From: Chloroflexota bacterium
GTDB lineage: Bacteria; Chloroflexota; Dormibacteria; Dormibacterales; Dormibacteraceae
Reading direction: 5' to 3'
NCBI GenBank assembly: GCA_005882115.1
Contig: VBEG01000002.1
Coordinates: 1-36,696, forward strand
Length of the DNA: 36,696 bases
The translations under genes and the position numbers were made by a program. Under the pieces are notes generated by a model. It saw nothing but the letters and a program-made list of their open reading frames with translations, did no database searches and was not told where the DNA came from. This document shows positions 6,497-33,588 of the stretch, piece by piece. The stretch's first letter is position 1, and each line of letters starts with the position of its first letter.

Positions 6497-6692
6497 TCGA
6501 GTGCGAGGGGGACATTCATCGGTCACGCGCAGGTAGGTAGAGCTCCACTCGGCTCGTGCGCCTGATGCGAAGTCAGGCTTGGGGCAGCGGGCCCTGCGCC
6601 CACGCCGCCGAGTTTCTAGAAAATCTGTGATACCGCTGTGACGCGGGATCACTTGGCGTCAGGCGGGAAACGACGACTCTGAATTCGAGAAC

Positions 6693-6737
6693 TGGTCGGG
6701 GGCTCGGGATTTGAACCCGGGGCATCACGGTCCCGAA
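6693..6737 (-). repeat. tRNA-Pro(CGG) 3' half, copy R1
   Basis: On the minus strand it reads anticodon loop TTCGGGA, stem CCGTG, variable loop, T-arm with loop TTCAAAT, acceptor strand and CCA: the 3' half of a proline tRNA with anticodon CGG. It differs from the copy at 33283 by about 2 of 45 bases. The 5' strand of the anticodon stem (CCACGG) is also present at 6738-6743, but the D-arm and 5' acceptor are absent, so it is not a working tRNA. DNA beyond it to about 6850 (GTGTCCTGGCGTGACC near 6812) matches the degraded copy at 19955-20090. No gene is visible in 6497-6963. Confidence 0.8.
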
Positions 6738-6963
6738 CCGTGGCGGGGACGCGTCCTCGACTGTCCCCCCGGCTCCGCCAAGGCCCGGCTGAACTCGATT
6801 GCCGCCTACTTGGTGTCCTGGCGTGACCTTCAAGAACCATGCGGCGCCGGGAATCCGTGATCCGGCGGAGACGCTCGCGGCCCCTGTCGACCTAGCAGGG
6901 ATTGGACAGATGAGCGGGGCCAAGGCGTTGTTGTGGGCGGGCTTGGGCTAGCAAGCCCGATGG

Positions 6964-11657: not shown

Positions 11658-11846
11658 TCACTCGGCCCAGCCCCAAATCCCTGGCTTGGTTACTTCCTGC
11701 CATCCGCAATTGCCGCACATGATGAATCTCCCTTCGAATGCCTGATCGCCGTGGGCAAGGTCTTTCATGTTTTCGAGCCGTGGTGCATTGATGTCAAGCA
11801 CTGATACGGCGGACGGCCTGGGCCAAGCGGTGGCTCGGACTTGCAC
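11658..11846 (-). CDS. Possible small zinc-ribbon-like protein
   Basis: A 62-residue frame from GTG 11846. The C-terminal half, FIMCGNCGWQEVTKPGIWGW, has one CxxC knuckle. A second CxxC, needed for a full zinc ribbon, is not present, so this may be a truncated remnant. It lies just downstream of the better zinc-ribbon candidate at 11911-12171 on the same strand. Confidence 0.35.
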   Translation of the reverse strand: MQVRATAWPRPSAVSVLDINAPRLENMKDLAHGDQAFEGRFIMCGNCGWQEVTKPGIWGWAE

Positions 11847-11910
11847 CTCGTCAGGGACGGCTCTGAAGCCTCGCTATGCCGTCTACCGCGGTCAGCCCTA
11901 GGGCCTGGCC

Positions 11911-12171: not shown

Positions 12172-12480
12172 TGACGTGATCCGGACTCAATGCTGAGAGT
12201 GCCTAAAAACGTCGCTTAGGCCAATGGGCACAGGCGGCGCAGCCTAGGCGCATGTCCCGCATGGAGAGGACAAACAGAGGAGCGGCAAACGCAGCCGCTA
12301 TTCGGACTGCCTCGCTAAGTCGCTACCGCTCGGCGAAGTGCAGCGAGCTGACGCCGCAAAACCTGTTGTCTGCGAAGCACTCTGGGAATCAGAACGCTGG
12401 CTGCAGATACTGAGTGTCGCTCAACCCAGAAGCTTGCAGCATGTCGATCACCGTCATCGACACTTCGGATAGGTCATGCA
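12172..12480. other. Intergenic stretch, nothing recognised
   Basis: No protein-like frame is visible apart from frameshifted residues near 12440-12500 (ITVIDTSDRSCMFIRSR in a neighbouring frame) that may continue the transposase remnant starting at 12481. Confidence 0.4.
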
Positions 12481-12720
12481 TGTTCATTCGCTCGAGATAG
12501 TCGAGGACGTTACCTCGGCCGACTCCGACACATCCGCCTCGGTCTCGCGCACAAGAACAGGAGGGTCAGACTGCTGGTCGCGGGCGCCAACGTTCGCATC
12601 ATCACCGAGGAGGGCGAACTTCTCCGATCTCTCACCCTCGAGCCGACACTCACCTACTACGGCCTTGGCGGACGCTGGCCGCTGCACAATGTCTTGCAAC
12701 AGGCCTGCACGATGTCCTGA
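12481..12720 (+). pseudogene. IS481-like transposase, C-terminal remnant
   Basis: The frame read from 12481 to TGA 12720 contains GRYLGRLRHIRLGLAHKNRR, then VRLLVAGANVRIITEEGELL and RSLTLEPTLTYY. This is the C-terminal beta-domain typical of integrase-core (DDE, IS481-type) transposases, which usually read ...LxIGxAHxGxRVxLLVxDxxVRVI..GELLRxLTLDPTRDYQ. The catalytic core is absent, and the likely upstream continuation is in another frame. The stop codon lies 11 bases from the tRNA-Pro-like repeat R2. It is a dead fragment. Confidence 0.6.
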
Positions 12721-12730
12721 GACATGACAT

Positions 12731-12775
12731 TGGTCGGGGGCCTGGGATTTGAACCCGGGGCCTCACGGTCCCGAA
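12731..12775 (-). repeat. tRNA-Pro(CGG) 3' half, copy R2
   Basis: 44 of 45 bases are identical to the copy at 33283. On the minus strand it gives anticodon loop TTCGGGA, T-arm, acceptor strand and CCA. The base after the CCA and the next several (GACATGACAT on the plus strand, 12721-12730) are identical to those flanking copy R4 at 26374. The anticodon-side DNA, to about 12905, also aligns with R4 over about 130 bp, including TTTACTACATGAACTGCTAC near 12878. No 5' tRNA half is present. No gene is visible between 12776 and 13143. Confidence 0.85.
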
Positions 12776-13143
12776 CTCTGAGAACTCTCGTCCAGAAGTG
12801 GCCGAAGCGATCGGTTTCAGCTCGAAAGTTCTGACGCAGCCAACCAGTCCGTCCAGATTGGAAGGGCTTTGCCGACGGTTTACTACATGAACTGCTACAT
12901 GGACCGAGGGGCTCAGCAGGACCGCTGTGCCTATTACGCGTCCATCGCAGCAGCTGGCGATAGCTTCGCCTTAGCAGAAGCAAAAGGTGTGCGGCAGGCT
13001 CACGGACCTAGTCTCCGGCTGAGACCATCGCCCTATTGGCCCCGACGCCGCAGCCCGCCAGGTCGCGGGACACCCCTATGCGATGGACTGCGCCGAGGAA
13101 ACCCGACCTAGATCATGTGGGCGCTAGCCGCCCGCGCTCTAAC

Positions 13144-13587: not shown

Positions 13588-13720
13588 AGGCTTCAAACCC
13601 TCCTTGGTGCCGAGAGCGCGGGCAGACTAGCGCAGTCACGTCATACCCCTTTTGATAGGGCATTTCAAGCAACCAGAAGGAAGCGTGGCCGGGAGGAATC
13701 GGCGATTTTGAACTTGATTT

Positions 13721-13760
13721 TGGTCGGGGGCCGGGATTTGAACCGGGCCTCACGGTCCCG
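13721..13760 (-). repeat. tRNA-Pro 3' half, degraded copy R3
   Basis: The same element as the copy at 33283, but with paired losses of C/G in the T-stem and an anticodon loop cut after TCCCG. The T-loop (ATTTGAA on the plus strand) and CCA end are intact. Its anticodon-side flank aligns with that of 33283 over about 140 bp, including the decamer array. Confidence 0.75.
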
Positions 13761-13775
13761 TCCGCCGGTAATGCC

Positions 13776-13867
13776 GTGTCCTCTCGTGTCCTGTGGTTTC
13801 CGCGGGGTTCCCCCTGTACTTGAACTGAGTCTTCTTCGCGTCCTCCTGTGACCTCCTGTATCCCCGG
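13776..13867 (+). repeat. Phased decamer array beside R3
   Basis: Consecutive 10-base units: GTGTCCTCTC, GTGTCCTGTG, GTTTCCGCGG, GGTTCCCCCT, GTACTTGAAC, TGAGTCTTCT, a 2-base break, then GCGTCCTCCT, GTGACCTCCT, GTATCCCCGG. Three GACACG-type elements (CGACACG, GTGACACG, GTGACACG) follow at about 13883-13915. The unit length is one DNA turn, and the same series occurs beside 33283. Such phased repeats next to a recombination core could be arm-type sites for a recombinase; that role is inferred. Confidence 0.65.
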
Positions 13868-13924
13868 GGTTCCGCGAACGCGCGACACGACTGTGACACG
13901 GGTGGCGTGACACGTCGCGTCCCA

Positions 13925-17268: not shown

Positions 17269-19662
17269 CTAATTCTTGCGATGCGTATATGTGAATGAGA
17301 GCGAGTTGGAGCCCGCGGTGTTGTTAACAACCACCGTGACCGACACCGTGGTGCCGGCGGTCCCGGCCGGTGTAACCCCGGTACAGCTGGTCTGCGAGGA
17401 GCAGGTCACGTTCCGTGCGGGGTTGTTGGGACCGAAGTAGAACTGCGTATTCCCGGTGGCGAAGCCCCAGCCGTTGATGGTGACCGTAGTCCCGCCGAGA
17501 TAGCTGCCGGAGCCCTTGCTGATCGACGTCAGCGATGGGATATATGTGTAGGAAACGGCGTTACTGAAGGGACCACTCGGCAACAGTTCAACCTGGACGT
17601 TTCCCGGTCCACCCACACCGGCTGGAGTCATCCCACCACACGAGGTCGTGGAGCAGCTGACGCCGGTCGCCGCTATGCCTTTGAACAGGACGCTGGTCGA
17701 GCCCGACTGAAAGCCGGAGCCCGAGAGTGTGAACGCCTGTCCGCCGGCCGCGGGTCCGGAGGAAACGGACAGCTTGCAGATCTGCGGTCCATTCGCGGTG
17801 TAGGTGAACTGGTCAGAAGACGAGGTCGCGCTGGTGCCAGACGGCGTGGTCACCGTGACATCGACCAAACCGCAGCCCGCAGGTGCGGTGACCGTGAGCG
17901 ATGTCGTGCCGGTGACGCTGACGTTAGTCCCCGCGCCAGGGCCGAAGGCGACTGACGTCGAGCCAGCGACGAAGCCGCTGCCGTTGACCGTCACCGGGGA
18001 GCAGCCGACATCGGGGCAAGTCGCCGGGCTGACCCCAGTCACCATAGGGGGCTGCACGCTCTGAAAATCGAGACGCTGAGCATAGGTCGCCCAATCGCAG
18101 TTGGGGAAGCTGGTGTTGGATCCGGCGTACTCGCCTGCGACCCAGACGTCACCGGTGGTGCTGGGGTCGAAGGCAGCGCCGCCGTAGTCGCCCCAGCGGT
18201 CGGGCCCGGAGTAGCTCGGGAAGCATTGACTGAGGTTGTAGAGGGCGAGCCCGGCCTGAACCGTCTGAGCGCCCACGATCGTCTGTGGCGATGACGCAGC
18301 CGGCTGACCCGCGACCCGAAAGCCGACGTAATCGGTGCTGGAGGAAAAGTTGTAACCGACAAACATGTCGCCGTTGCTCGCCAGCCAGGCGACCGGATAG
18401 TAGAGATCCCCACCGGTATGGGCGAGGTCGAAGTTCTGGTTCACGCTCATTGTGCCGGTGAGCACCTGGATGAGCCGGCTGCACGGGCGGACTGTGGTGT
18501 CTGAAGGCGGCGTGCAGGCATCGTTCCCGCCGGTCCAGAGTGTCCCGTTGACCCAGACCGAGTTGAGGATGCGGTCGTCGTTGGTGTCGATCGAAGCGAG
18601 CATCCCCGGCTGATCGGCATTCGGCGGGTTCGACGTGCTGGCAATGCCGGGATCTGACTCGGTCCAGCTGAAGGTGCTGGTCCCAGGCGTTCCGCCGGCG
18701 GCGATCACCCCCAGCGTGGGCGAGCCCTTGTTGCAGCCCGTATAGCCGCAGTCGCTGTTGTTGTAGACGAGGTAGAGGACGCTGGAGTCGGTGAGATGCT
18801 GGGAGGGCACGATTCCTGACTGGTTCGAGTTCGGCCCGACCGCAGTTCCGGGCGCCGGCGAGCCCGTGAGCAGCGGCGACTTCTGCAGAACCCACGTTGT
18901 AGCGCCTTCAAAAAAGCTCGTGCCGAGGAAGTCGTTCCACGCGATCGCAACCTTGTCTGTGCTCACGCCGAGCTTCGGCTGGTCATGAAGCAAGGTCGAT
19001 TGAGCTGCCTTATAGATATGCCAGGTGCCTGTAGGGTCGCTGCTTGTCGACACTGCCAGCACGAACTCACTCGCATACGACGAGGTATAGGCGACTCCCG
19101 TCGAGAACCAGCGCCCGCTGAGCGCGTCATACAGGACCCTTGGATCTGAAAAGCTGTAGCCCGTGCCAACGAGGCCGTAGAAAACGTTGAGGTCGAAGTC
19201 CGTGACGAAGGTACCGTCCTTGTTCCAGACCGAGCCGGTTGAGTTGACCATCTCGAGGAGATTGCTGGGCCCTGCCGCCAGTTGGGTGTCCGGCGGCGCG
19301 ACGTTCTGATCGCCGTTGGCGCTGAAGTCGCTGGTCTGCTTCTGGACGGTCATGCCGGTAAAGCCGGCGATCAGCTGCAGCGTCGGACTTGAGGTCGACG
19401 TCGACGGTGTCGCACCGGTCACGACGTTTGCAGTGGAAGGGCTCGAAGTCGAGGTTCGGCTCGCCGGCAGGAGCACCGGCAGTCGGTGCGAGCCGCCCCG
19501 TCCAGTCGGCGGCAGATGCTCGACCGTGACGGTGCGCACCGGGGACGCCCTGACTGTCGTGAAATGGTCACCGGGCCGGTCAGCGGCTTCAGCGGGGGCC
19601 GTGCCCGCCAGCGAGATCGAGCAAGCTGCGATTACGGCGCTGCACGCAGACCGCAATTTCAT
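17269..19662 (-). CDS. Large secreted protein with three IPT/TIG domains
   Basis: A 797-residue exported protein. ATG 19662 follows GGAGGTG. The signal peptide MKLRSACSAVIAACSISLAG ends near PAEAA. A Ser/Thr-rich linker (about residues 60-95) is followed by a propeller-like region of about 450 residues with NVAPPDTQLAAGPSNLLEMV, DPRVLYDALSGRWFSTGVAY and WGDYGGAAFDPSTTGDVWVA. Three Ig-like IPT/TIG domains then run from about residue 550 to the end, each opening with a VTGVSPA- or ITSxSxGSG-type strand and holding a G-SGF-xxGSTSV motif. The N-terminal region resembles extracellular proteins of Chloroflexota and Acidobacteriota with no assigned activity. It is probably surface adhesion or polymer binding. 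Confidence 0.85.
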   Translation of the reverse strand: MKLRSACSAVIAACSISLAGTAPAEAADRPGDHFTTVRASPVRTVTVEHLPPTGRGGSHRLPVLLPASRTSTSSPSTANVVTGATPSTSTSSPTLQLIAGFTGMTVQKQTSDFSANGDQNVAPPDTQLAAGPSNLLEMVNSTGSVWNKDGTFVTDFDLNVFYGLVGTGYSFSDPRVLYDALSGRWFSTGVAYTSSYASEFVLAVSTSSDPTGTWHIYKAAQSTLLHDQPKLGVSTDKVAIAWNDFLGTSFFEGATTWVLQKSPLLTGSPAPGTAVGPNSNQSGIVPSQHLTDSSVLYLVYNNSDCGYTGCNKGSPTLGVIAAGGTPGTSTFSWTESDPGIASTSNPPNADQPGMLASIDTNDDRILNSVWVNGTLWTGGNDACTPPSDTTVRPCSRLIQVLTGTMSVNQNFDLAHTGGDLYYPVAWLASNGDMFVGYNFSSSTDYVGFRVAGQPAASSPQTIVGAQTVQAGLALYNLSQCFPSYSGPDRWGDYGGAAFDPSTTGDVWVAGEYAGSNTSFPNCDWATYAQRLDFQSVQPPMVTGVSPATCPDVGCSPVTVNGSGFVAGSTSVAFGPGAGTNVSVTGTTSLTVTAPAGCGLVDVTVTTPSGTSATSSSDQFTYTANGPQICKLSVSSGPAAGGQAFTLSGSGFQSGSTSVLFKGIAATGVSCSTTSCGGMTPAGVGGPGNVQVELLPSGPFSNAVSYTYIPSLTSISKGSGSYLGGTTVTINGWGFATGNTQFYFGPNNPARNVTCSSQTSCTGVTPAGTAGTTVSVTVVVNNTAGSNSLSFTYTHRKN

Positions 19663-19954
19663 GCCCCACCTCCCGGTCGACGAACAGGACGCCGCAGAGC
19701 GGTAGCAGTAGCCTACTTCGGCCCCGTCACCCAGTCAAACCTGGCAATGCCACGAGACAGTCGAGATTTGGGCACCGGTCGCTGCGCTCCTCACGATCGG
19801 AACGCGTGATTTGCCGCGCAGTTCGCCGCGGTTCGCGCATGCCGCGCTCGGATTGGTCCTGCACCAGGCCCGGCTTTATCGTTTCGGAGAGCGCCCACCT
19901 TCTTGGACACCTCCCCGGGCGGCTTCGCCGGCGCTTGATTCTGAATTCAGAAAT

Positions 19955-20090
19955 TGGTTAAGGGGCCCGGACCGTGTTCGTGCACGTGTCCTCGCGTGAC
20001 CGGCCGGCTCCTTGACTGCCCTTTCGAGCTCGATTACAGCTGGCTTAGCGTCCTGGCGTGACCCCGCGAAACGGTTCGAATCCGGGAATG
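19955..20090 (-). repeat. Degraded tRNA-Pro-type repeat with arm
   Basis: TGGTTAAGGGGCCCGG (19955-19970) matches the CCA end and acceptor strand of R1 (6693). The left flank TCTGAATTCAGAAAT matches R1's TCTGAATTCGAGAAC. The T-arm is deleted, and the sequence resumes at ACCGTG, then CGTGTCCTCGCGTGACC and AGCGTCCTGGCGTGACC, matching the R1 arm (GGTGTCCTGGCGTGACC near 6811). So the two belong to one subgroup. 19663-19954 shows no gene. Confidence 0.55.
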
Positions 20091-20179
20091 CGTTCTCCCG
20101 GCTATGACCGGCGATGGTCCGGATCCGACCAACGAAGTGGTCGAGTCCCCCAGTCAGTTGTCAGGGGTTCGACTACATT

Positions 20180-20218
20180 GGGGTGGGCCGCGGTGGACTC
20201 GAACCACCTCCTCCGCGG
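20180..20218 (-). repeat. Second tRNA-like 3' half
   Basis: On the minus strand: T-stem GGTGG, loop TTCGAGT, CCACC, acceptor GCGGCCC, then A. The matching 5' acceptor GGGCCGC is not found within a tRNA length upstream, so this is a 3' fragment only, of a tRNA other than proline. CCA is not encoded cleanly (ACCCCA). Confidence 0.45.
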
Positions 20219-20220
20219 TA

Positions 20221-20782
20221 GAGCGGCCTGAGCGCCGTGCAGACCAGAGCGGCGAAAGCAGATTGGCCGAGCGCTGTGCCCGGTGTTATCAGGACGGCTC
20301 GAATGTAGACCGCCGCAAGGTGTCGTGCCGGTGCGTGCGGCTTCTAATTCCCAGCCCCGCCCCCTCCGAAAGCGTGGCCAGCGGTTTGGGCGAGGTGAGC
20401 GACGTGCGGTAGCGACCTCTGGCCGCCGGCGGAGATTCGCACGGCCATGGGGACCATTGCGAGCCCGATCACGAAGTAGCACGTTGCTGCCAGCTCGATG
20501 GGTAGCTGAGCGTCACACGTACGGCGGGCACCAGGATGGACTGGCCGACGATCCAGCCGGCACGCGAGTAGCGAGTGGACGGGGATGGATCGCCCATTGA
20601 CGCCCACGCAGCCGCGTGCTAATGGTGAGAAGTCGCGGGCCAGAGCCATCGTCAGAAGGCTCGCGCTTGGAGGTAGGAAGAGGACAAGGAGTGCCGGGGC
20701 TGATCCAAGACAACATGGCAGCCATCTCACGCGACGCGGCTCAGTGGGTGCTCGCCTCATGAGGGCGAACGATGGCTAGCCA
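20221..20782. other. Stretch without a confirmed gene
   Basis: A minus-strand frame at 20344-20760 has a hydrophobic segment ELAATCYFVIGLAMVPMAVR and could be the remains of a membrane protein. Its first half has poor composition and no ribosome site. Nothing else is recognised. Confidence 0.3.
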
Positions 20783-22144
20783 ATGAAAGTCCAGGCCCTC
20801 ATCGTCGCCCTTGCAGTCTTGACACTGGCCGCGCCCGAGGCGCGGGCCGCGGCGCCGGTTCCGTTAGTGCGCGCGACGCACACGGTCGTGGCAACGCTGA
20901 CCAGTCCACCGGGCTCCTCGCCGGCCGGGCTTGCTTTTGCCACACGCAGTGGCTTGCTCTTCGTCGCGAACATCTTCACCGACGATGTTTCCGTGATCGA
21001 CCCGCGGACTCGGGCTGTCATAGACACCGTCAAGCTCGCTGGCGGGAATACGTGCGCTCATCCCTTGAGCGTTGGCTACGACAAAGCACACGACGTTATC
21101 TATGTCTCTTGTCAACAGTACCTGGACGTGACGGCGATTGACGGGACGACGCACCAGCCAATCGGCAGTCCGATCGAAGTCGGGTCGTCACCGTTCGGAA
21201 TCGCCTACAACGAGCGCAACGGCGACGTTTACATCGTAATCGCGCACACGGACGAGGTCGTGGTCCTCGACGGTGCTACGCGGACCATCGTCGACCGCAT
21301 ACCCGTAGGCACTGCTCCGTTTGGAATCGCATATGACAGTCGGCGCGGTTTCCTCTACGTGACGAATTCGCAGTCGGACTCGGTCTCGGTGATCAACGGA
21401 GCCACGAACCAGGTCGTGCGCACGATACCCGTGGGGTCCTCTCCCCTAGGCGTTGTCTACGACAACCAGAACGACACCATCTACGTCTCGAATTACTTCA
21501 GCAGCAACGTCGTTGCAATCGACGCGGCAACGGGCCAGCTCGCCGCAGAGATCTTCGTTGAAGCGTTTCCATTCGGAATCGCGCTCAACCCGCGGGACGG
21601 CGATCTCTATGTGGCAACGCTCGGGGCGGGCACGGTCGACGTGATCGACACGACCATGAACGTGCTCGTTGAATCTGTCCCGCTCGGTTCGGGCGGAGTC
21701 TGGACGGCAACAGACCCCCGCACTGGGGACGTCTGGGTCACGCACGGGGACGCCGTCAGCGAACTCGCCGCGCGGCAGGGCCCACCGCTCATGCAGATCA
21801 GTCCTGCCATGGTCAACTTCGGCGCTCAGCCGGTCGGCAGCGTCGAGAGCAAATTCGTGACCGTAACTAACGCGAGCGGCCGGCCCCTGCTCGTCGCCGT
21901 TACAACGGTCCACGTGCCCGACGACTTCTCTGCCGGCGGTGGACTACCGGGAAGCACGTGCCCATCACCCGACCAGGGTCTCCTCGGCGCCGGTGAGAGT
22001 TGCACGCAATTCGTCGGCTTCTTTCCATCGGAACCCTTCCTTGGCCAGCATGAGACGGGCTACCTCCAGGTCACCGCGTACGATCCGCTGAGCGGAGAGA
22101 ATCTTGAGGAGGACTTCGTCGCGCTCAAGGGCATTCCCCGCTAG
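20783..22144 (+). CDS. Secreted YVTN-type beta-propeller protein
   Basis: A 453-residue exported protein with signal peptide MKVQALIVALAVLTLAAPEA (cleaved near ARAAA). About seven YVTN/NHL-like blades occupy residues 35-330. Each has the form PFGIAYD..., LYVTNSQSDSVSVINGATNQ, VVRTIPVG; the one at VGSSPLGVVYDNQNDTIYVS is typical. A C-terminal Ig-like domain (about residues 335-453; ISPAMVNFGAQPVGSVESKF) resembles the ASH/choice-of-anchor type and holds a Cys pair (GSTCPSPD, ESCTQF). Such proteins are surface-associated binding or structural proteins; no enzyme motif is seen. The ribosome site before ATG 20783 is weak. It is the only long plus-strand gene between 15785 and 32411. Confidence 0.87.
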   Translation: MKVQALIVALAVLTLAAPEARAAAPVPLVRATHTVVATLTSPPGSSPAGLAFATRSGLLFVANIFTDDVSVIDPRTRAVIDTVKLAGGNTCAHPLSVGYDKAHDVIYVSCQQYLDVTAIDGTTHQPIGSPIEVGSSPFGIAYNERNGDVYIVIAHTDEVVVLDGATRTIVDRIPVGTAPFGIAYDSRRGFLYVTNSQSDSVSVINGATNQVVRTIPVGSSPLGVVYDNQNDTIYVSNYFSSNVVAIDAATGQLAAEIFVEAFPFGIALNPRDGDLYVATLGAGTVDVIDTTMNVLVESVPLGSGGVWTATDPRTGDVWVTHGDAVSELAARQGPPLMQISPAMVNFGAQPVGSVESKFVTVTNASGRPLLVAVTTVHVPDDFSAGGGLPGSTCPSPDQGLLGAGESCTQFVGFFPSEPFLGQHETGYLQVTAYDPLSGENLEEDFVALKGIPR

Positions 22145-22409
22145 TCACATCGTAGAAGCGGATCCTCGCTTCCTCCAAATACTCGCCGTGCCTGGGGAGG
22201 TGCGCGCGTTGAAGGCGCGGTTTGGTGGCCTGTCGCGTGTACAACACGCGAGTCCCACTGCGGCTCGGCCTAATCCGGCGCACGACATGAGCCCAAGGAG
22301 GTGGTGCCAGAGTTCGCTGACGGCATCGACCTGTGCACAATTCGCGATGGTTCTTGCGGCTTTTCGACAGCGACGATGACGACGAACCACCGCTCGCGTC
22401 GGTGAAAGC

Positions 22410-22610
22410 TGTCAACGCCAGTCTGAAACTCCTCAGTTTTCCGCCGGTCTGAAATTCCCCATCTCAGTACCGATTTCGTCTGAGCGCCGGTCTCAAATTC
22501 CCCACACGAGGCGCTGGCGTGACCAGGGTGCTGGTGGGCATGCTGAAGACGCCGGCACGCTCTTGTCTTTGAGCCGATAGCTCTCGCCCCTACGGCGCGG
22601 CGGTATGGAA
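22410..22610 (-). mobile_element. IS21-family right-end remnant (istB tail plus terminal repeats)
   Basis: Three copies of a 20-base motif, CGCCGGTCTGAAATTCCCCA, lie at 22416-22435 (variant), 22442-22461 and 22485-22504. The outer edge TGTCAACGCC at 22410 gives the TG...CA tip seen in IS21 elements, which carry multiple terminal repeats bound by IstA. On the minus strand just inside, GESYRLKDK (22588-22562) matches the C-terminal motif of the IstB helper ATPase, followed by a frame change. No istA and no other end are seen, so this is a relic. 22611-22833 shows no gene. Confidence 0.6.
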
Positions 22611-22833
22611 CGACGCGCGCAACGCCGCGGATTGCCCGGCGATAGATGCTTGGCGGATGTCGCTGCGCACGGGCGCCAGCGTGCCTCGACCTGCTCCTGA
22701 GCAGGATTGCCCCGCCAACTTCGGCAACTCCGACATCTCGGCGGCAGCTTCCCCGATCCGACCCCGTAACGCAAAGGGGGGCGCCCGACGGCGCCCCCGC
22801 ACCTCTCCCGCCAGCGAGCCGGGTTCTGGGTCC

Positions 22834-24240
22834 CTACGGATGCACGGCCGCGGTATAGATGTCGAGCTGGTGGAGGGCGCCGTCGGGGTTGGTGCCGGTG
22901 CTGTTGGAGTTGTCGGACCAGGCCGGCCGCGCTTTACCACCGTAGAAGGCAAGCCCGGAGTAGTCACCGTAGTCGATCCCATTGCCCGAGTCGTGCGAGT
23001 TCGAGGTCCCTGCGCTGATCTGGACGTTGGCGCCAAACGTCGCGCCGCCGTCAGTGCTGAACGCGCCCCAGAGCTGGGCATCGTCGTTGGCGATCCCGTC
23101 GGTGTCCCCGGCGCCGCCGGTGCCGAGGTCACGCCTGGCGTCGTACCAGACGGCGGCGACGTTGCCTGAGGTCTGGTCGAGGGCGATCTTGGGCAGGAAC
23201 TGGCTGTTGGGGGTCTGGTCGTCGTTGACACGCACGCCCTGGCTCCAGGTCGCGCCGTTGTCGTCGGAGAAGCGGACGAAGATGTCCGTGTTGTCGCTCT
23301 CGTTCTGAATCTCTTTGGTGTAGACGAGGTACACGCGGCCGTTGCGCGCCCCCCCGGTCCGGTCCCAGGCCAGGCCCGGCTCGGCGTCGATCGAACGGTC
23401 CCGCTGCGGCGGGATGAAGTCGAACCCGCCGACGTGTGTTTCGGCGACGAACACGCGGTCGCCGAAGCCGGCCGGTCCGAGGCCGTCAAGGTCGACGTTG
23501 ACGAACAGCCTGCCACCGCCCTGGCCGCTCTCGGTGAGCGTGCAGACCTGCATCACCTGCCCCGTCGGCCCGATCGCGATGTCGCCGTACGTGCAGTTGT
23601 TGGTGCCTGGCACCACCTCGCCCTGAAAGAACGACCCGACCTGGCCGAAGCCTGCCACCGCGGCGCCCGTCGCGAACAGCGGCCCGCCGGCGTTGAAGAT
23701 CACCCAGACCTCGCCCCTGGCCGCCGTGATCGTCGGCTGGTCGACGAACCGGAAAAGGCCGCGATTGTCGCCGCTGGTCTTGGTCGGCGTCCCCTTCGGC
23801 GGAGCGACGATATTGCCGACCAGGTTGAAGGTCAGGCCGCCGTCCGTGCTGAGGGCGATCGGGACGGTGTTTTCGACCTCGAAGAGATAGCTCATGAACA
23901 GATTGCCGAACTCATCGAAGGAGAGGGTCGGATCGCAGCACGCGTCACCGAGGTTGTCCTTGTCGCCGATCAGCTTGCGGGTCCACGTTGTGCCACCGTC
24001 GAAGCTGACTGCCTCGAACATGCCGGCGTCGAGCCCGGCCTCACGGTGCCCGACGTTGGTGACGATCACGATGTTTTTCGGGTTGGTTGGGTTGATGGCG
24101 ATCGCCTCCTCGGACTCGTTCAGGGGGCGCTGGCTGGCGTCGATGTTGAGCAGGCCGCTCTTCGCGGCCGCCGTGCCGGGGGGGAGCATGGCAATCAAAC
24201 CGACGAGGATCAAGAGGCCGGGTGCGGGCAGCCTGCGCAT
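22834..24240 (-). CDS. Secreted BNR/Asp-box (sialidase-like) propeller protein
   Basis: A 468-residue exported protein. ATG 24240 follows AAGGAGG at ideal spacing, which decides the start over the longer frame. The signal peptide MRRLPAPGLLILVGLIAMLP ends near GTAAA. The mature part has at least four Asp-box motifs of the S-x-D-x-G-x-T-W/F type: SFDGGTTW, STDGGLTF, SDDNGATW and STDGGATF. This marks a six-bladed sialidase-type propeller. The catalytic Arg triad, Tyr and FRIP motif of true sialidases are not evident, so binding or another hydrolytic role is just as likely. A Cys pair occurs at GDACCDP. Confidence 0.85.
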   Translation of the reverse strand: MRRLPAPGLLILVGLIAMLPPGTAAAKSGLLNIDASQRPLNESEEAIAINPTNPKNIVIVTNVGHREAGLDAGMFEAVSFDGGTTWTRKLIGDKDNLGDACCDPTLSFDEFGNLFMSYLFEVENTVPIALSTDGGLTFNLVGNIVAPPKGTPTKTSGDNRGLFRFVDQPTITAARGEVWVIFNAGGPLFATGAAVAGFGQVGSFFQGEVVPGTNNCTYGDIAIGPTGQVMQVCTLTESGQGGGRLFVNVDLDGLGPAGFGDRVFVAETHVGGFDFIPPQRDRSIDAEPGLAWDRTGGARNGRVYLVYTKEIQNESDNTDIFVRFSDDNGATWSQGVRVNDDQTPNSQFLPKIALDQTSGNVAAVWYDARRDLGTGGAGDTDGIANDDAQLWGAFSTDGGATFGANVQISAGTSNSHDSGNGIDYGDYSGLAFYGGKARPAWSDNSNSTGTNPDGALHQLDIYTAAVHP

Positions 24241-24565
24241 GGCGTCCTCCTTAAATCGTGGCCGGAGAAACTGAGTGTATTGGCGACCGTTCTCCGCGTG
24301 CAATGCGCGGCCGATCGGCGCACTTTGGATCACCGACGATCCTCGTCGGCGGTCGCGATCCGTTTGCCACGGGCGCCGAGTAGGTGCACATGATGTGCCG
24401 CATCTACGCGACCGACGTGGGTCGTCAAGGGGCTCCCACCGAGTCTCAGCTCCGGGGAGAGTTCTCCTAGCGACCTCGAGGCCTAACGGGCTCTCTTACG
24501 CGCGAGGTAATCGGTGGAGCGGCCCGGGCACCGGTGTGTAGCGGACCGCTCCTGGTGCTCGATTG
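24241..24565. other. Intergenic stretch, nothing recognised
   Basis: Apart from the ribosome site of the 24240 gene, no protein-like frame, strong hairpin or repeat is seen. Confidence 0.4.
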
Positions 24566-26204: not shown

Positions 26205-26362
26205 TCATGCGGTGAGCGCAACGACCTCCGCGAGCCGCTGTGATGGTGTCATCCATCGAGGGTTTGTCGAGGGCGCTCGTTGAGCTCCCTGGCTACAGCG
26301 TCCAGCTGACGCTGGGTGAACCTAGATAGATCGGTGAGACGAGGGAAATACTGCCGGTCTTG
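26205..26362 (-). pseudogene. IS30-family transposase C-terminal remnant
   Basis: The minus strand reads DRQYFPRLTDLSRFTQRQLD, AVARELNERPRQTLD and, after a one-base frame change, WMTPSQRLAEVVALTA and a stop. This is the standard C-terminus of IS30 transposases (typically YFPKGTDLSxHxxxDLxAVAxxLNxRPRKTLGWxTPAExL). The DDE core is missing. The fragment is cut at its 5' side where the R4 flank begins. Confidence 0.7.
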
Positions 26363-26373
26363 CGACATGACAT

Positions 26374-26418
26374 TGGTCGGGGGCCCGGGATTTGAACCCG
26401 GGGCCTCACGGTCCCGAA
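26374..26418 (-). repeat. tRNA-Pro(CGG) 3' half, copy R4
   Basis: All 45 bases are identical to the copy at 33283. It carries the anticodon loop, variable loop, perfect T-arm, acceptor strand and CCA. The CCA-side flank GACATGACAT and the anticodon-side arm (to about 26555; TTACTACACGAGCTACTACA near 26522) are shared with R2 at 12731. The 5' tRNA half is absent. Confidence 0.85.
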
Positions 26419-26571
26419 TCACACGCTAGTTCGTCCAAGCATGCCGTTTCTAACCGTTTTCAGTTCGAAATTTCTACATTCGGACCAGCCCGCGTCCAGC
26501 AATGAGCCTTTTTTCCAGCGGATTACTACACGAGCTACTACATTCGGCCGGCCGCATGGTCGCGTTAACGA

Positions 26572-27708
26572 CTACGCGGCGAAAATGCCCAGCTTCCGCA
26601 CCAAGAACGAGGTGAGAATCGATTCGTAGGCCACCTGATCAACATTCCATTCCTGGGTGTGGCCAGCATCCGGAAAGAGGTGATACTCAACCAGGTCTGG
26701 CCGGGCCTTGGCCAACCTTGCGGCGCCTTCAGGGGGCAAAAATGTCTCCTGGCCATCTTGAAACAGCAAGGTAGGAGCTCGCATCGAGCCTGCGTCCCTG
26801 ACCTGGTTGTAACTCATGACATCGAATCCGATGCGTTGGCGGATGACCTGCTCGGTAGGCCATACCAGAAAATTCGGAATCCCGCGTCGGGCGGCCTGAA
26901 AATTGATGACCGCGTCCCAGTCGAGAACAGGGGAATCAAGGATCACCGCGGGAACCTTCGCGGCGAAGCTGGAGTTCCTCATGAACAGCTGGACCAGGGC
27001 TCCGCCCATCGAGATCCCGACCAATACGACCCGAGTCGCGCCTTGTGCGAGCGCCCAGCGGACCGCCGCTTCCACATCCCGCCACTCGGTATCGCCGAGG
27101 TGCAGGAGATGGTCCGGGCTGGCAGGCGCGCCAACGTCATTTCGGTAGCGAATCAGGACCATTGGCAAGCCGAGCTTGGCAAGTGCCGGTACGACCCGCA
27201 GCCCGTCAGTCTGGGGCGCGTTATGGCCGTGGACCACTATCACGAAATCTCGGAGCCGGCCGGGCACGTACCACGCCGGAAGCATGCCGAGCTCGCCCGG
27301 AATCAGAACGTCATCCGACGGGATGCCAAACGCTGCTTCAGGGTCGCCTTGATATACCGGAGTGGTAAGCACTACGCGTTCTCCGACGTGAAGTGAGCCG
27401 TCAGCGTCCTGAAGGTTTCTGGTCACAGTGCTTCGTGAGGTGGTAATCACCTTGCCGACGATTGCATGCCCGCCTCTCCACTCCAGACCGAACGTGCCTT
27501 GACGACTGGTGTCGGTGGTCTTGTCCATCTCGACAGTGGGCGCCGAAACGGCTCGGACCGTGATGTCGTAGTTGGGTGAGCTGTGATCGGGAGCTAGAAG
27601 CTGGTCCGAGAAGTACCAACCCACGCCAGCCATCCCGGCCGCGGCCAACACTCCGAAAACTAGAACGGCCGCAATGAGAACCTGGCGCGTGCGGGCCGAC
27701 CTTGTCAT
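26572..27708 (-). CDS. Membrane-anchored alpha/beta hydrolase
   Basis: A 378-residue protein with an N-terminal membrane anchor (residues 10-33, VLIAAVLVFGVLAAAGMAGV), so the hydrolase domain is probably outside the membrane. A beta-rich segment covers residues 40-140. The alpha/beta fold starts at FVIVVHGHNAPQTDGLRVVP. The nucleophile elbow is VLVGISMGGALVQ (Ser in GISMG) and the catalytic His lies in DAGHTQEW. The acid position, normally Asp in HGDADxxVP, is Glu here (FQDGQETFLPP). It resembles BEM46/YfhR-type serine hydrolases; the substrate is unknown. No ribosome site is obvious at ATG 27708. Confidence 0.85.
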   Translation of the reverse strand: MTRSARTRQVLIAAVLVFGVLAAAGMAGVGWYFSDQLLAPDHSSPNYDITVRAVSAPTVEMDKTTDTSRQGTFGLEWRGGHAIVGKVITTSRSTVTRNLQDADGSLHVGERVVLTTPVYQGDPEAAFGIPSDDVLIPGELGMLPAWYVPGRLRDFVIVVHGHNAPQTDGLRVVPALAKLGLPMVLIRYRNDVGAPASPDHLLHLGDTEWRDVEAAVRWALAQGATRVVLVGISMGGALVQLFMRNSSFAAKVPAVILDSPVLDWDAVINFQAARRGIPNFLVWPTEQVIRQRIGFDVMSYNQVRDAGSMRAPTLLFQDGQETFLPPEGAARLAKARPDLVEYHLFPDAGHTQEWNVDQVAYESILTSFLVRKLGIFAA

Positions 27709-27785
27709 TTGGCGGTTGGCATGGAGTTGACGGAAGGATGCACATCAAGTCGTCGAGAGCAGGCCGATGTCATGACCGCCAAGGC

Positions 27786-30122
27786 TCAGGGAGTGAACAG
27801 CAGCGACGCCGGAGGGCCGAACATTCCCTGCCCGCCCACTAGCAGAACACGTCCGTCGGCCAGCGTGACCGCAAGCGCGGCAGACCTGGCAGCTGGAAGC
27901 GCCGCCGCCGGCGACCATGAACCAGTCGTCGGGCTGTAGATCAACGAGGCTGCCACAGGGTCGGCGCTGGTGCGATAACCGACTGTTGCAGAGCCGCCTG
28001 CGACCAGGACCCGGCCGTCGGCGAGCCGTGCGGAGGAGTACGCGTAGAGGGCCATCGGCATGTTCTGCGAAGGCGTGAGCTTGCCCGTAGCGTGATCCCA
28101 GCGCATAACCTGCGCGGTGGCTTCATAGACGGGGGCCCCGCCCGATTCGGTGCCGACCAGCACCGTGCCGCCCGCGAGGAGCACATCGCCCGACGGGAGT
28201 CGGAGGGCAGAAAACCCGTTCCACGAAGGCAATCCAAGCCGCAACGACCCAGTCGCAGCGTTCGGGTATGAGCCGGCCTCGGCCCAGCCTCCTGTCGCGG
28301 GGTTGAAGACCATCGCCTTCAAACTGCCTCCGACCAGGACCCGGCCGCCGGGAATGGCGGTGACGCTCTGCATGTCGGAGCCGCTTGCCACGAGATCACC
28401 CGGCACGTCGGAAGTGGCGGTCCAGCGGTTCGCCTTGGGGTCGTAGATTAGGGCGTGCCTGTCAATCTGCTGCAACGCGGTCAGCCAGACGCGCCCGTCC
28501 GGAAGCAGATCCAACCGCGCCCATCCGATCTTTCCCGGCGAGGCAGCCGGGGTCGCCTGCCCGGTCTTCAGATCCACGATCTCGGCTTTCGCGGCCACGA
28601 CTTTTTGCGGGTCGATGGTGAGCAGGAGAACCTTGCCGTCGGCCAGCGGGCGAGTTGCGAGGAAGGGTGGGCTGGGCGCGCCGATCCCGCAGGGGTTGCA
28701 TGGCGGAGGTTTGCGGCTGAACGGAGTAGTCCAGGCGTCGGACCTCGGGTCGTAGACCTGCAGCTCCCCGCTGTACTGCGCGGCTACCACCAGCACGCGG
28801 CCGTCAGGGAGCAGTTGCGCATAGTCGGAGTGGGAGTCAGCCGAGATCGGCTTCGATGCGGCCAGCTGCCAGCGCCCAGGCCCGGCCGGAGTCCGCGCGG
28901 GCGCGGGGAACCCTTTCGCCGAGGGGTCATACAGCTCGGCGCTCGCTAGCGGGTCGCCTGAACCTCGTCCGGCGATCACCAGGATGCGGCCATTAGCGAG
29001 GGGGATCGCCACGTGATTGCTCCTCTGAGTTTGGAGGGCCCCCGTCGATGACCAGGAGTTGGCGGCCGAGTCGTACAGCTCGGACGACGCAAGCCTCCCC
29101 AGCTGGTCGGCGCCGCCCGTCACGAGCAACCGGCCATCGGTGAGGATCGCGGCCGCGTGGGCCGCGCGAGAGCTGATCAAGTCGGGGCCGGCCGACCATG
29201 AGTTCTTGGTCGGGTCGTACAGGAGGGTGGAACGCAGGGCGGTCGATCCATCCGCCGCAAGTCCACCCGTGAGCAGCGCCCGGCCGTCGGCGAGCGCTGT
29301 CAGCGTGAAGTGGCTTCTCGCGCCAGCAATATCGCCCGCGCTGGTCCAGCGTCCGGTCGGCGGGTCGAAAAGCTCCGCGCTGGACACAAGCCTTTCCGGG
29401 TATAGCGCGTCGGCTCCCCCCACGACCAATACCCGGCCACCCCTTAGCGCGACCGCGGTGTGACCGAACCGGGCATGTGCCAGCGAGGGGCCCGTGGTCC
29501 AGGTGGATGAGCTGGGATTGAAGAACTGGCTGCTGGCCAGTACCTGCGCACCGTAGCCGCCGACCACGAGCACGCGACCGTCAGCGAGGGCCGTCGCGGT
29601 CGCATAGGCTCGGGCGACGCTCATATTCGGAGCCTTGACCCAGGTATTGGTATTCGACTTGTAGGTCAGCGCGCTTGCCAGCGGGCCCGGCCCGGCGGTG
29701 TCGCCCGTGAAATCGGGCTGGCCCCCGGCCAGCAAAGATCGGCCGCCGGGTAGCGGGGCGGCAACTGCTCCCAAGCGGTCGTCGGGCAGTTTCGGGCCCA
29801 GCAACCATCCGTTGGCGGGGTCGTAGATGTCGACGTTTCCGATCCCGAGGCCATCGCTCGAAGCTCCCGTGACGAGTACCCGGCCGCTTTGCAGGAGTAC
29901 GGCAACCATTTGACCGCCACGCTGGGTGCTCAACTGGCCGGCGGACGTCCATCCACCGGGGAGGGTGCCGACCTGCGCGGAAGGAGACACAAGCGATGAG
30001 CCGGACGCGGATGGTGCGGGTGAAACCTTGCTGGCTTGCGACGGCGGGGAGCAGGCGGCTGAAGCGCTTACGACGGCGCACGCAGCCGCCAGAACAAACC
30101 ACCTTCGTCGTGGACCGCCCAT
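27786..30122 (-). CDS. Kelch-repeat lipoprotein
   Basis: A 778-residue protein. MGGPRRRWFVLAAACAVVSA leads to a lipobox-like ASAAC, so it is probably a surface lipoprotein. At least a dozen kelch-type motifs follow, of the form LADGRVLVVGG...A-ELYDP...W, in two blocks separated near residues 440-470, consistent with two propellers. Cys residues occur in the stretch PPPCNPCGIG. The frame can start further out at a GTG at 30203, three bases after the stop of the upstream gene. That would give an unusually long n-region, so 30122 is preferred. It probably forms an operon with the lipoprotein gene upstream. Related kelch proteins include galactose-oxidase-like enzymes, but no copper site is recognised. 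Confidence 0.82.
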   Translation of the reverse strand: MGGPRRRWFVLAAACAVVSASAACSPPSQASKVSPAPSASGSSLVSPSAQVGTLPGGWTSAGQLSTQRGGQMVAVLLQSGRVLVTGASSDGLGIGNVDIYDPANGWLLGPKLPDDRLGAVAAPLPGGRSLLAGGQPDFTGDTAGPGPLASALTYKSNTNTWVKAPNMSVARAYATATALADGRVLVVGGYGAQVLASSQFFNPSSSTWTTGPSLAHARFGHTAVALRGGRVLVVGGADALYPERLVSSAELFDPPTGRWTSAGDIAGARSHFTLTALADGRALLTGGLAADGSTALRSTLLYDPTKNSWSAGPDLISSRAAHAAAILTDGRLLVTGGADQLGRLASSELYDSAANSWSSTGALQTQRSNHVAIPLANGRILVIAGRGSGDPLASAELYDPSAKGFPAPARTPAGPGRWQLAASKPISADSHSDYAQLLPDGRVLVVAAQYSGELQVYDPRSDAWTTPFSRKPPPCNPCGIGAPSPPFLATRPLADGKVLLLTIDPQKVVAAKAEIVDLKTGQATPAASPGKIGWARLDLLPDGRVWLTALQQIDRHALIYDPKANRWTATSDVPGDLVASGSDMQSVTAIPGGRVLVGGSLKAMVFNPATGGWAEAGSYPNAATGSLRLGLPSWNGFSALRLPSGDVLLAGGTVLVGTESGGAPVYEATAQVMRWDHATGKLTPSQNMPMALYAYSSARLADGRVLVAGGSATVGYRTSADPVAASLIYSPTTGSWSPAAALPAARSAALAVTLADGRVLLVGGQGMFGPPASLLFTP

Positions 30123-30206
30123 GCGGCAATAACGGTTCGCCTGTGAGTTGGTTTCGACCCGACCGCCGGCTTTCTTGCCGCCGGGAGATGTGCCTCGTTT
30201 CACAAC

Positions 30207-31490
30207 TCAGCTCATCTGCTGGGGCACGGTGCCAAGGAACTGCAGATACGCGTCTGGAGAGTCAGGTCTCCCCGGCGGATTTGTCTGGGGCACTGCGGCG
30301 GAGACGCCAGTTACGAGGTCAAGGATGAGGGACCTGTTCGAAGGGACGGCGAAGTAGACCAGATGCTCGTCATCGAGCCAACCCTGAACAATTCCCTTCA
30401 CGTCCAGCTGGTTAGTGCCCGATACGGAAACGAGGTTGATGTGAGAATCAACCGGGGGACCGAGATTGCTACCCGCCAACCGGCTGCCGTTGGGAGCCAA
30501 AGCTGTTGGACTCGGTCCAAAGTCATGCCACGGGGCGAAGACGTGCCCGACACCGTCCCAGCTCCGGTACCCGATGGCCGAGTATCGGTTCAAGTAACAA
30601 GCGGCGCCCGCGCGGGCCACCGGCCCGCGGTTGCAGTCATCGCCCGTGCCCACTGTCGCCACGCGAACACCGGTGGTGGCGTTCGCGACATGGTATCCCT
30701 CGACGGCAAAGTACGGGTTCTCGACCGTGTACTGGACAGGGCCGGCGGGACCGACCGCGATGACCAGGTGCCCGTTGTGCCATCCGATCGGCCACTCGGT
30801 AACCGAGGTTGAGCTGAAGAGGTTGACTCGATTACCTCCTGCGAGGTCCTGGACGAACAGGTTCATCGTGACCCCCGGGTTTCCAAATGTGCTCGATCCT
30901 TTGTAGTCGAATGCGGCGACTGCGATTCGGGAATCATCAGGCGATACCGCGACGGCGTATCTGACTCGAGGGCTCACGGGCAGGTGGACCGCGGTTCCCG
31001 TGTGGCCATCAGGCGTCAGGTAGCCCACGTCGCTGTCACCGTCCAGGAAGTAGGCGCGTGTGTCCGATGAGGTGACGAGAGGCGCCCTTGGTCGAAACGG
31101 AATCTGGCATGTCGGCATTGGGCTCCGTCCGATCACTGGACAGTTCTGATAAGTCATGACCACTGGCGAGGAAAGGCGAGGATTGACTCTGGCCGCGATG
31201 GAGCCATCTGCGGCAACGAGCACAACGGAGTAGCTCGTTGCGGTGGAGATGCCATAAGCGTTGGGCAATTCTTGGTGGACGAGGATGGCGACCGGTAGAT
31301 CGGCATGGGACCGAGCGGAAGGTGAGGGGCCGGCAGCTACCACAGTCGGGGTCGCCGAGGCAGTGGTGGCTGCCGCGGGAGTGGGTCTGTTTGCCTGCGG
31401 CGCTGAGCCACAGCCGACCAATGCTGCGAGCATGCCGCAGGCTGTAGCCACACTTAGCCACCCGCGAAGCGCCTTGCTCATGTGGGCCAT
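30207..31490 (-). CDS. Putative lipoprotein, TolB-like propeller
   Basis: A 427-residue protein from ATG 31490 (a second ATG is at 31481). MSKALRGWLSVATACGMLAA leads to the lipobox LVGC. A Pro/Ala/Thr-rich linker follows, then a domain of about 340 residues with propeller-like strands: VSPDDSRIAVAAFDYKGSST, VNLFSSTSVTEWPIGWHNGH and LAPNGSRLAGSNLGP, in the style of TolB/WD40-like surface lipoproteins. Four Cys in the mature part (QNCPVIG, PTCQIPF, DDCNRGP, AACYLNR) may form disulfides. The gene sits just upstream of the kelch lipoprotein on the same strand with almost no gap. Confidence 0.75.
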   Translation of the reverse strand: MAHMSKALRGWLSVATACGMLAALVGCGSAPQANRPTPAAATTASATPTVVAAGPSPSARSHADLPVAILVHQELPNAYGISTATSYSVVLVAADGSIAARVNPRLSSPVVMTYQNCPVIGRSPMPTCQIPFRPRAPLVTSSDTRAYFLDGDSDVGYLTPDGHTGTAVHLPVSPRVRYAVAVSPDDSRIAVAAFDYKGSSTFGNPGVTMNLFVQDLAGGNRVNLFSSTSVTEWPIGWHNGHLVIAVGPAGPVQYTVENPYFAVEGYHVANATTGVRVATVGTGDDCNRGPVARAGAACYLNRYSAIGYRSWDGVGHVFAPWHDFGPSPTALAPNGSRLAGSNLGPPVDSHINLVSVSGTNQLDVKGIVQGWLDDEHLVYFAVPSNRSLILDLVTGVSAAVPQTNPPGRPDSPDAYLQFLGTVPQQMS

Positions 31491-31558
31491 AACGCGCCTT
31501 CGGCATCTTCGTTTCGTCGCCGACGGAATGATCGCAGAGGGACGTACACGCGATTGAC

Positions 31559-32197
31559 TCAGCACATGTGACAGATAAAGATCGCGGCGGTCTTGACGTT
31601 GAACATGCTCGCGAACAGGGAAGCGCCGAAATCGGTGCCGTTCACGGTGGCGGTCGCATCAGCGCTGCGAACATCCCCGTTAGCGTGGAAATTGCCGCTG
31701 AACGGGTCCTTCGAGAAATGTACGTTCGAAACATCGTGGATGAGATCGCCTTGCCCGGTCCACGACGCGCGCACCGTCACAGTTCCACCGTCGGCGCAGG
31801 CGTCGACCGTGCAGGTTATAACCTGGAATGATGCCAAGGCCGATGCACTGGAAAGCCTTGGGCTGACTGACAACGAAGCCACTCCGAATCCGGCGGTTTC
31901 GGAGATGAAGGTAAATGCCCCGGTCGAGTCGAGGCTGAATCTACCTATGTCGATGGAGAGTGTCGTCTCCGAAGTCTTGGTTCCATCGGCCTTCGTAATC
32001 TGACTGGCGACTCCAATGCTTATGGCCGTGCAGACCTGGCCGCCGGCAGGCGAGGGCTCGCAAGAGCCAAACGCTGCAGCGGCACCAGAGCCGGCCATGC
32101 TGAAGCGGTCCTGATATGTGGCCGATGCAGTCAGTGGAGTCGCAAGTGCTGCGCCGATGGCGAGACATGCCCAGGCGAGCCGTGACAAGCGTTGCAT
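31559..32197 (-). CDS. Secreted protein of unknown function
   Basis: A 212-residue exported protein. ATG 32197 follows GGAGT. The signal peptide MQRLSRLAWACLAIGAALAT is cleaved near TASAT. The mature part is a beta-rich single domain with FGSCEPSPAGGQVCTAISIG, CTVDACADGGTVTVRASWTG and a C-terminal IFICHMC; six Cys may pair. No family is recognised. Confidence 0.75.
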   Translation of the reverse strand: MQRLSRLAWACLAIGAALATPLTASATYQDRFSMAGSGAAAAFGSCEPSPAGGQVCTAISIGVASQITKADGTKTSETTLSIDIGRFSLDSTGAFTFISETAGFGVASLSVSPRLSSASALASFQVITCTVDACADGGTVTVRASWTGQGDLIHDVSNVHFSKDPFSGNFHANGDVRSADATATVNGTDFGASLFASMFNVKTAAIFICHMC

Positions 32198-32292
32198 TCG
32201 TTACTCCAATCTTCCGAAGCTCGAGATTTCAGAGCGTGCTTACCCTTGGTCTCGGCCGGACTATGCGCTCCGCGGGTTAGCTCGTCTTCCGT

Positions 32293-32330
32293 ATCCGTAC
32301 GGATCTTTCTACGGAGGTGGTCGCCTCCGT
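32293..32330. promoter_or_regulatory. Palindrome and hairpin before the LuxR-type gene
   Basis: A perfect 12-bp palindrome ATCCGTACGGAT (32293-32304) is followed by the hairpin ACGGAGG/CCTCCGT with a 6-base loop (32311-32330). They lie in the 213-bp divergent space between the secreted protein gene and the LuxR-type gene. They share the ACGGA core, so they may be regulator sites. Confidence 0.4.
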
Positions 32331-32410
32331 ACCCGCGACGTTGGTCATGTCGAACCCTTGGCCCTAATAAAGGGTGTCCGAGTATGATCCCGCCCAGGAA
32401 ATAGACAAGG

Positions 32411-33103
32411 TTGAGGACGCGAGCGATTGGCGGCCACCAGGACCGAGCCAGCCTGAATCCTGTTCGGTTGATTGCTGCGCCCTACGCCCTTGCCGGAAAT
32501 CGCGGCGAACCGCTTGCTGCGGCGTTGTGCCTCAGTCTTCTGGGCCTCATCTTCATCGCCGAAGTAGTTACCCCCGATGTCGTCGTCGGTGCATTTGCGA
32601 TTTTGCCGCTGCTCGCTGCGGCGTGGGCGCTCTCGGGTCGGATGGCGACTCTTGTGGCAATCGCGGCGACGTTGCTTTTTGGTCTTGCCGTAGCGATAGA
32701 AACCACAAACCGGGTTACGGTGATCCTTGTCGGAGTGGCGGTGTTCATTCCAGCCCTCGTCGCTAGGCTTTATGCCAAGGGCGTCACCTCTCTCCTGATC
32801 AGCCGTCGTCACGTGCGGCCGGCGATCAGCAGCTGGGCCGCACCAGCGACCGTCGATGGAATTGATCGATCGACCCAAGGACTGCGATCGTTGACTCGGC
32901 GGGAGCTTGAAGTCGCGCGCCTGGCCGCCGAGGGATACACCGCGGCTGAAATCGGCGGACGTTTGAGCATTGGTCATAGGACAGTCGAGAGCCACCTGGC
33001 CAGTGCTTACTCGAAACTACGCATCCGCTCAAGACTGCAACTGATTCGAATGGCCTCCAGACTGGGTGGTTCCGCCCCGGCTGAATCGACCCCCCCGATC
33101 TAG
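32411..33103 (+). CDS. Membrane-tethered LuxR-type transcriptional regulator
   Basis: A 230-residue protein with four hydrophobic segments (about residues 33-55, 58-75, 79-97, 103-121) followed by a C-terminal LuxR/FixJ helix-turn-helix (about 158-215): LTRRELEVARLAAEGYTAAE, IGGRLSIGHRTVESHLASAY and SKLRIRSR. No receiver or sensor domain is present, so the membrane part may itself sense a signal or hold the regulator at the membrane. The start is uncertain: TTG 32411 is the first usable codon after an in-frame TAG at 32402, and no good ribosome site is visible. It is divergent from the secreted protein at 31559. Confidence 0.8.
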   Translation: MRTRAIGGHQDRASLNPVRLIAAPYALAGNRGEPLAAALCLSLLGLIFIAEVVTPDVVVGAFAILPLLAAAWALSGRMATLVAIAATLLFGLAVAIETTNRVTVILVGVAVFIPALVARLYAKGVTSLLISRRHVRPAISSWAAPATVDGIDRSTQGLRSLTRRELEVARLAAEGYTAAEIGGRLSIGHRTVESHLASAYSKLRIRSRLQLIRMASRLGGSAPAESTPPI

Positions 33104-33282
33104 CGCCCCGAGCGAGGTCAGCCGCACGCCAGAAGTTCCATCGGCCTGCAGGAAGCGCTCCCCCTGCTACCGGCTCTCACCAGGGAAGCCATCCCGACTG
33201 GCACGTCGAGGTTCGGAGTTTGCGGCTACTGGGCGATGCGGACAGAGGTGCGAAATCGGCAGTCTGCGGAGATCCCTAGATT

Positions 33283-33327
33283 TGGTCGGGGGCCCGGGAT
33301 TTGAACCCGGGGCCTCACGGTCCCGAA
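33283..33327 (-). repeat. tRNA-Pro(CGG) 3' half, copy R5
   Basis: The best preserved copy. Minus strand: anticodon loop TTCGGGA (anticodon CGG), stem CCGTG, variable loop AGGCC, T-stem CCGGG/CCCGG with loop TTCAAAT, acceptor GCCCCCG, A and CCA. The anticodon stem can still close with CGCGG on its 5' side (33328-33332). The D-arm and 5' acceptor (expected CGGGGGC) are replaced by the decamer array. The spacer 33104-33588 holds no other recognised feature. Confidence 0.88.
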
Positions 33328-33340
33328 CCGCGGTGGTGTC

Positions 33341-33442
33341 GTGTCCTTCTGTGTCCCGGCGGCTCCTCCCGTGTCCTCCCGTGTCCTCCTGTACTCGAGC
33401 TGGATCTTCTTCGTGTCCTCCTGTGACCTCCTGTATCCCCTG
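33341..33442 (+). repeat. Phased decamer array beside R5
   Basis: Ten-base units run head to tail: GTGTCCTTCT, GTGTCCCGGC, GGCTCCTCCC, GTGTCCTCCC, GTGTCCTCCT, GTACTCGAGC, TGGATCTTCT, a 2-base break, then GTGTCCTCCT, GTGACCTCCT, GTATCCCCTG. Two GTGACACGG elements 11 bases apart follow at 33457 and 33468. Unit order and the 2-base break are conserved at 13776-13867, with one unit fewer there. Confidence 0.75.
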
Positions 33443-33588
33443 GCTTCCGCGAATGGGTGACACGGCTGTGACACGGATGAAGCACAGGCCCGGAGTGTGT
33501 CACCCGCGAGAGTGGTCCCGGGAGGCCTCGCGGGCCGCATGAGCGCGCGACCACCTTTTGAGTGGCCGCGCTGCAAGCGATTTCTTGA

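Follow-up and report, generated by a model that had tools for sequence, protein, structure and literature searches.

The window analyzed here, a stretch of 36,696 nucleotides that is contig C83 of a 3.36-Mb MAG, contains an array of decamers in helical phase directly beside the 3′ half of a tRNA-Pro gene. From comparison of sequences, we lean toward the interpretation that this array is the P arm of an attP-type site in tandem tyrosine-recombinase elements and that the decamers are operators for an excisionase (RDF). Such elements would integrate head to tail in the tRNA-Pro(CGG) 3′ half, and the feature in the window would have been left at one of the junctions. The tRNA core recurs in a fixed orientation and is where homology between arrays breaks, and the phase and spacing of the decamers are constrained.

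In the window, a threshold of at least 6 of 10 matches to GTGTCCTCCT identifies five decamers on the plus strand, at 33341, 33351, 33361, 33371, and 33381, and, after a break, three further GTGTCCTCCT-like decamers at 33413, 33423, and 33433. The sequence-only reading had counted ten units with one 2-base break. The array of GTGTCCTCCT-like units is real, but the slots at 33391-33412 are not decamers, and the unit count is therefore eight; these slots form a conserved 32-bp gap, measured from GG to GG, that contains GTACTCGA (read on the tRNA strand as TCGAGTAC). The break is likewise present, but the register is kept across it (32 bp is ~3.05 turns). The same reading had placed two GTGACACGG copies 11 bases apart, which we find on the plus strand at 33457 and 33468, and had the array adjoin the half tRNA on its anticodon side, as it indeed does. 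Its claim of helical, one-turn spacing also holds: self-similarity of the array at lags of 10 and 20 is 0.84, compared to a shuffle mean of 0.57 (sd, 0.06), and exceeds that of all 2,000 dinucleotide shuffles. In the wider family of such arms, which we call class A, the layout is three distal and four proximal units; the window copy is 3+5, with one extra proximal unit. The central TCGAGTAC motif (33391-33398) resembles both a TTTTGAATTCAAAA-like motif immediately following CCA in P′ flanks and TTTCGAACTGAAA in class B, a second arm family at the same core; these motifs are possibly a shared accessory site.

Table 1. Positions of the array, its core, and the other sites and cargo in the window
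Feature	Position	Strand	Remark
Core: tRNA-Pro(CGG) 3′ half, anticodon stem/loop to encoded CCA	33283..33330	-	
Putative 7-bp overlap TTCGGGA (anticodon loop) between inverted CGG/CCG of anticodon stem	33321..33327	-	
Proximal decamer block, five AGGAGGACAC units (tRNA strand), exact 10-bp steps	33341..33390	-	family norm four
Inter-block gap, 32 bp GG to GG, TCGAGTAC motif kept in family	33391..33412	-	
Distal decamer block, three units, 10-bp steps	33413..33442	-	
Conserved ATTCGCGGAAGCC (family version ATTCcCGGaACC)	33442..33454	-	
CCGTGTCAC pair, 11-bp step (GTGACACGG on plus strand); candidate integrase arm-type site	33457..33476	-	
Second class-A site, 79% identical over 129-nt arm, damaged core	13693..13903	-	
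Third class-A site; ARAGORN tRNA-Pro call on core and arm (6697-6768)	6664..6866	-	
Decayed class-A site, core internally deleted	19966..20128	-	
Class-B site, same core, other P arm (TGTAGTA pair, TGGACG), without decamer array	12676..12962	-	
Class-B site	26294..26606	-	
~6.9-kb element between two cores	26419..33282	.	alpha/beta hydrolase, kelch protein, LuxR-type regulator, two other ORFs

All 48 nt of the core are identical to the real tRNA gene at G000:C69:21718-21794, the single true tRNA-Pro(CGG) in the genome. The genome holds 28 matches to the core including this gene, hence about 27 displaced 3′-half copies. The combination of a tRNA gene and a displaced 3′ fragment in the same orientation, which marks tRNA-targeted tyrosine-integrase elements, is found here, as are the repeated tRNA 3′ ends that additive islands acquire by serial insertion at one tRNA. 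On the contig of one relative (G019), an intact tRNA-Pro heads an array. The arms of classes A and B both end at the TTCGGGA anticodon loop; recombination would take place in this loop, with the crossover probably within TTCGGGA. Two cores at L057 (G000:C24), at 8085 and 8175, are merely 90 bp apart. We rejected the ARAGORN call of a tRNA-Pro at the third class-A site (minus strand): the called gene is a displaced core, with class-A arm sequence occupying the D-arm region, and the interval has no Rfam tRNA match at the gathering score. The arrays yield false tRNA calls.

We compared 59 distinct class-A copies from Dormiibacterota MAGs, 55 of them remaining after a 92% filter, and 33 class-B copies; arm copies share ancestry, so these counts represent non-independent events. 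Across the 55 class-A arms, GG is near 2 bits at -101, -91, -81, -49, -39, -29, and -19 from TTCGGGA. It is kept in 99% of pooled class-A decamers, and, depending on the position, 47 to 53 of 53 copies have it at exactly the expected place. The spacers, by comparison, fall to 0.1 to 0.6 bits and are nearly random; spacing is therefore held while much of the intervening sequence drifts. Between the distal motif and the core, 36 copies have 122 bp, 4 have 112 bp, 1 has 132 bp, and 3 have other values; arms thus differ in length mostly by complete 10-bp units. Conservation in class A peaks at a period of 10.4 bp, as attained by 14 of 1,000 block shuffles. Class B (33 copies) shows no such period and no decamer array; its arm carries the TGTAGTA pair and TGGACG. 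Class A has the direct repeats, one turn apart and beside the core, that are expected of an RDF operator array. This alignment of copies, a check proposed in the sequence-only reading, shows GG positions and spacing conserved over 55 non-redundant arms, and the outcome that would have counted against that reading, low-complexity expansion without phase conservation, did not occur. On the P′ side, a TCACAG pair occurs at a fixed position in 27 of 117 flanks, compared to 0.02 expected from shuffles. The TCAC pair is thus present on both sides of the core, and no decamers were seen in P′ flanks. The association of P′ type with P-arm class at the other end of an element is not significant (p = 0.088, strict; 0.29, relaxed), and we therefore do not claim a pairing.

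Apart from one contig binned as Acidobacteria, every relative with the exact core is a Dormiibacterota MAG. Core matches occur in 51 of 61 genomes (60 relatives and the window's own), those in distant genomes perhaps being the tRNA gene alone. When one copy of the decamer arm was used to query 201 genomes from across the phylum, 6 had it; these belong to the home family and to a single genus of another family. Neighboring sites lie on the same strand in 66 of 67 pairs across genomes (p = 9e-19), at a median site-to-site distance of 3.4 kb. The sole opposite-orientation pair, at 13521 and 16895 of L189 (G026:C14), is on a contig with a tyrosine recombinase at 11363-12340. When arrays are compared, homology stops at the core: the flanks of 50 site pairs are homologous downstream only, those of 22 upstream only, and those of 5 on both sides. 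Two genomes share an element that follows a class-B arm; in a third genome, an element 98.8% identical to it follows another upstream flank. A further element is 97% identical between two genera, with the caveat of MAG binning; fragmentation and binning error of MAGs limit synteny. A search by DNA for a phage, plasmid, or viral-contig source returned nothing beyond ordinary tRNA-Pro matches.

This genome has no intact cognate integrase or excisionase; its array intervals contain one C-terminal integrase remnant, and the ~6.9-kb element next to the array has no integrase domain. Cargo in the window is rich in beta-propeller-type proteins (kelch, BNR, YncE-like, and SBBP repeats; 9296-10672, minus strand; 17269-24333; 27786-30203), and a coding tandem repeat of ~153 bp lies within 9.3 to 10.7 kb. 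Array contigs of relatives (L147 and L187) carry a tyrosine integrase with all six catalytic residues. The sequence-only reading had likened the decamers to arm-type sites beside a recombination core, and such a setting is supported by this catalytically complete integrase, the same-orientation cores, the breaks of homology at the core, and the phase kept across 55 non-redundant copies. In G003:C100, the integrase gene (L147, 964-2250, minus strand) lies between two class-A sites, and its N terminus is replaced by or fused to a PNPOx fragment. G022:C12 encodes a full-length integrase with an excisionase-family gene (TIGR01764, HTH_17) nearby, for which most array-bearing genomes have no close relative. 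No decamers lie upstream of this gene, and we rejected excisionase autoregulation as their role. Matches to generic XerC/IntI models were weak. A separate 3.9-kb element, at 1952-5896 of G000:C18 (L067), is flanked by two tRNA-Pro(TGG)-like cores, one of which adjoins a 374-aa tyrosine recombinase; neither the element nor its upstream flank (1952-1999) has decamers, and it was rejected as the native source of the arms.

In the mechanism we favor, the integrase would link the core to distal arm sites, for which the 11-bp TCAC pair is most likely, and a small winged-helix excisionase would use the decamers (3+4 in the family, 3+5 here) as its operators. The excisionase would bind head to tail, each protomer covering one turn of the helix, and the resulting bend in the P arm would favor excision; most elements appear to lack an integrase and, if still mobile, would be moved in trans. 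Known RDF operators, such as those of phage 186 Apl and lambda Xis, are direct repeats in attP, one turn apart, that are bound head to tail with bending of the DNA (PMC7498355). The class-A decamers, located between the distal TCAC pair and the core, match this geometry. The phage 186 attP has five RDF sites at 10 to 11 bp (PMC7498355), whereas here 3+4 or 3+5 units stand in two blocks 32 bp apart with a putative binder, and known RDF sites are reported with only a few units, fewer than the seven to eight here.

Less likely, though still a possibility we take seriously, is that the attachment site is the same but the decamers are themselves arm-type sites, with the integrase N-terminal domain at up to seven or eight positions. 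Phage lambda has adjacent 10-bp arm sites. Five arm-type sites are reported for the ICEMlSym attP (PMC11963761), and in our sequences the decamers and the TCAC pair have GACAC in common, on opposite strands. However, the decamers occupy the P side only, whereas the TCAC pair occurs on both sides, and the integrase N-terminal domain is predicted as strand-strand-helix with a pLDDT under 50. Because the TCACAG pair is fixed on the P′ side, as an integrase arm site should be, we favor the excisionase as the decamer-binding protein. We infer that the integrase arm site is more plausibly the 11-bp TCAC pair; decamers that are confined to one side and spaced one turn apart bear a closer resemblance to excisionase sites.

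It is improbable that the decamers instead serve as sites for a host protein, architectural or regulatory, other than the integrase or an element-encoded excisionase. An excisionase gene was not found in the arrays of this genome, and the strong phasing fits any cooperative one-turn binder, such as the BldC-like proteins cited in PMC11963761, but class-B arms lack the array on the same core and in the same genomes, which argues against a general host requirement. Minisatellite-like slippage without function is very unlikely: whole units are gained and lost, yet the GG positions are fixed amid nearly random spacers, the gap stays at 32 bp, there is no local homogenization of units, and phase conservation contradicts it. 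Open frames cross the region and half a tRNA is present, but a functional RNA or coding sequence is the least credible reading, as folding of 25 arms gave z-scores of -0.65 and -0.11, Rfam returned no match, and 10-bp indels would shift a reading frame.

Tandem integration at tRNA genes and additive islands are known already. Islander reports 125 tandems of at least two members, only 4 of at least three, among 3,919 islands, and requires each member to have its own integrase (PMC4383910). Its islands likewise pair a tRNA gene with a displaced same-orientation 3′ fragment and include an anticodon-centered attP class, but here one genome has about 27 displaced cores, mostly without an integrase. 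The additive island fGI-2 of Methylophilaceae also grew by insertions at one site and has recurring tRNA 3′-end repeats (PMC10872708); its repeat is 20 nt, unlike the 45- to 48-nt core with conserved, class-specific arms here. Tycheposons, too, are cargo-carrying, tRNA-targeted elements with a tyrosine recombinase, but are described as 4 to 200 kb, compared to a median of 3.4 kb for the elements here. Integron cassette arrays share small same-orientation cassettes, a common recombination site, and a majority of members without a recombinase, whereas the present arrays have a double-stranded tRNA core, long arms without an RNA-fold signal, and a phage-type integrase. The present arrays differ from known tandem islands in their length, in how rarely they include an integrase, and in having two arm classes on one core, one of them phased.

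With more than 50 natural arm variants whose spacers are saturated and whose phase is fixed, class A allows an evolutionary dissection, of a kind seldom available, of how helical register is read by a recombination complex. More tentatively, the arrays may be a tRNA-based analogue of integrons: lineage-wide, largely integrase-free Dormiibacterota cassettes whose P-arm modules shuffle at the tRNA-Pro core, also between genera, and which rare elements with integrase and excisionase would mobilize in trans by reading arm class. The arrays would also offer a tRNA-based, integron-like route of gene exchange in an uncultivated soil phylum.
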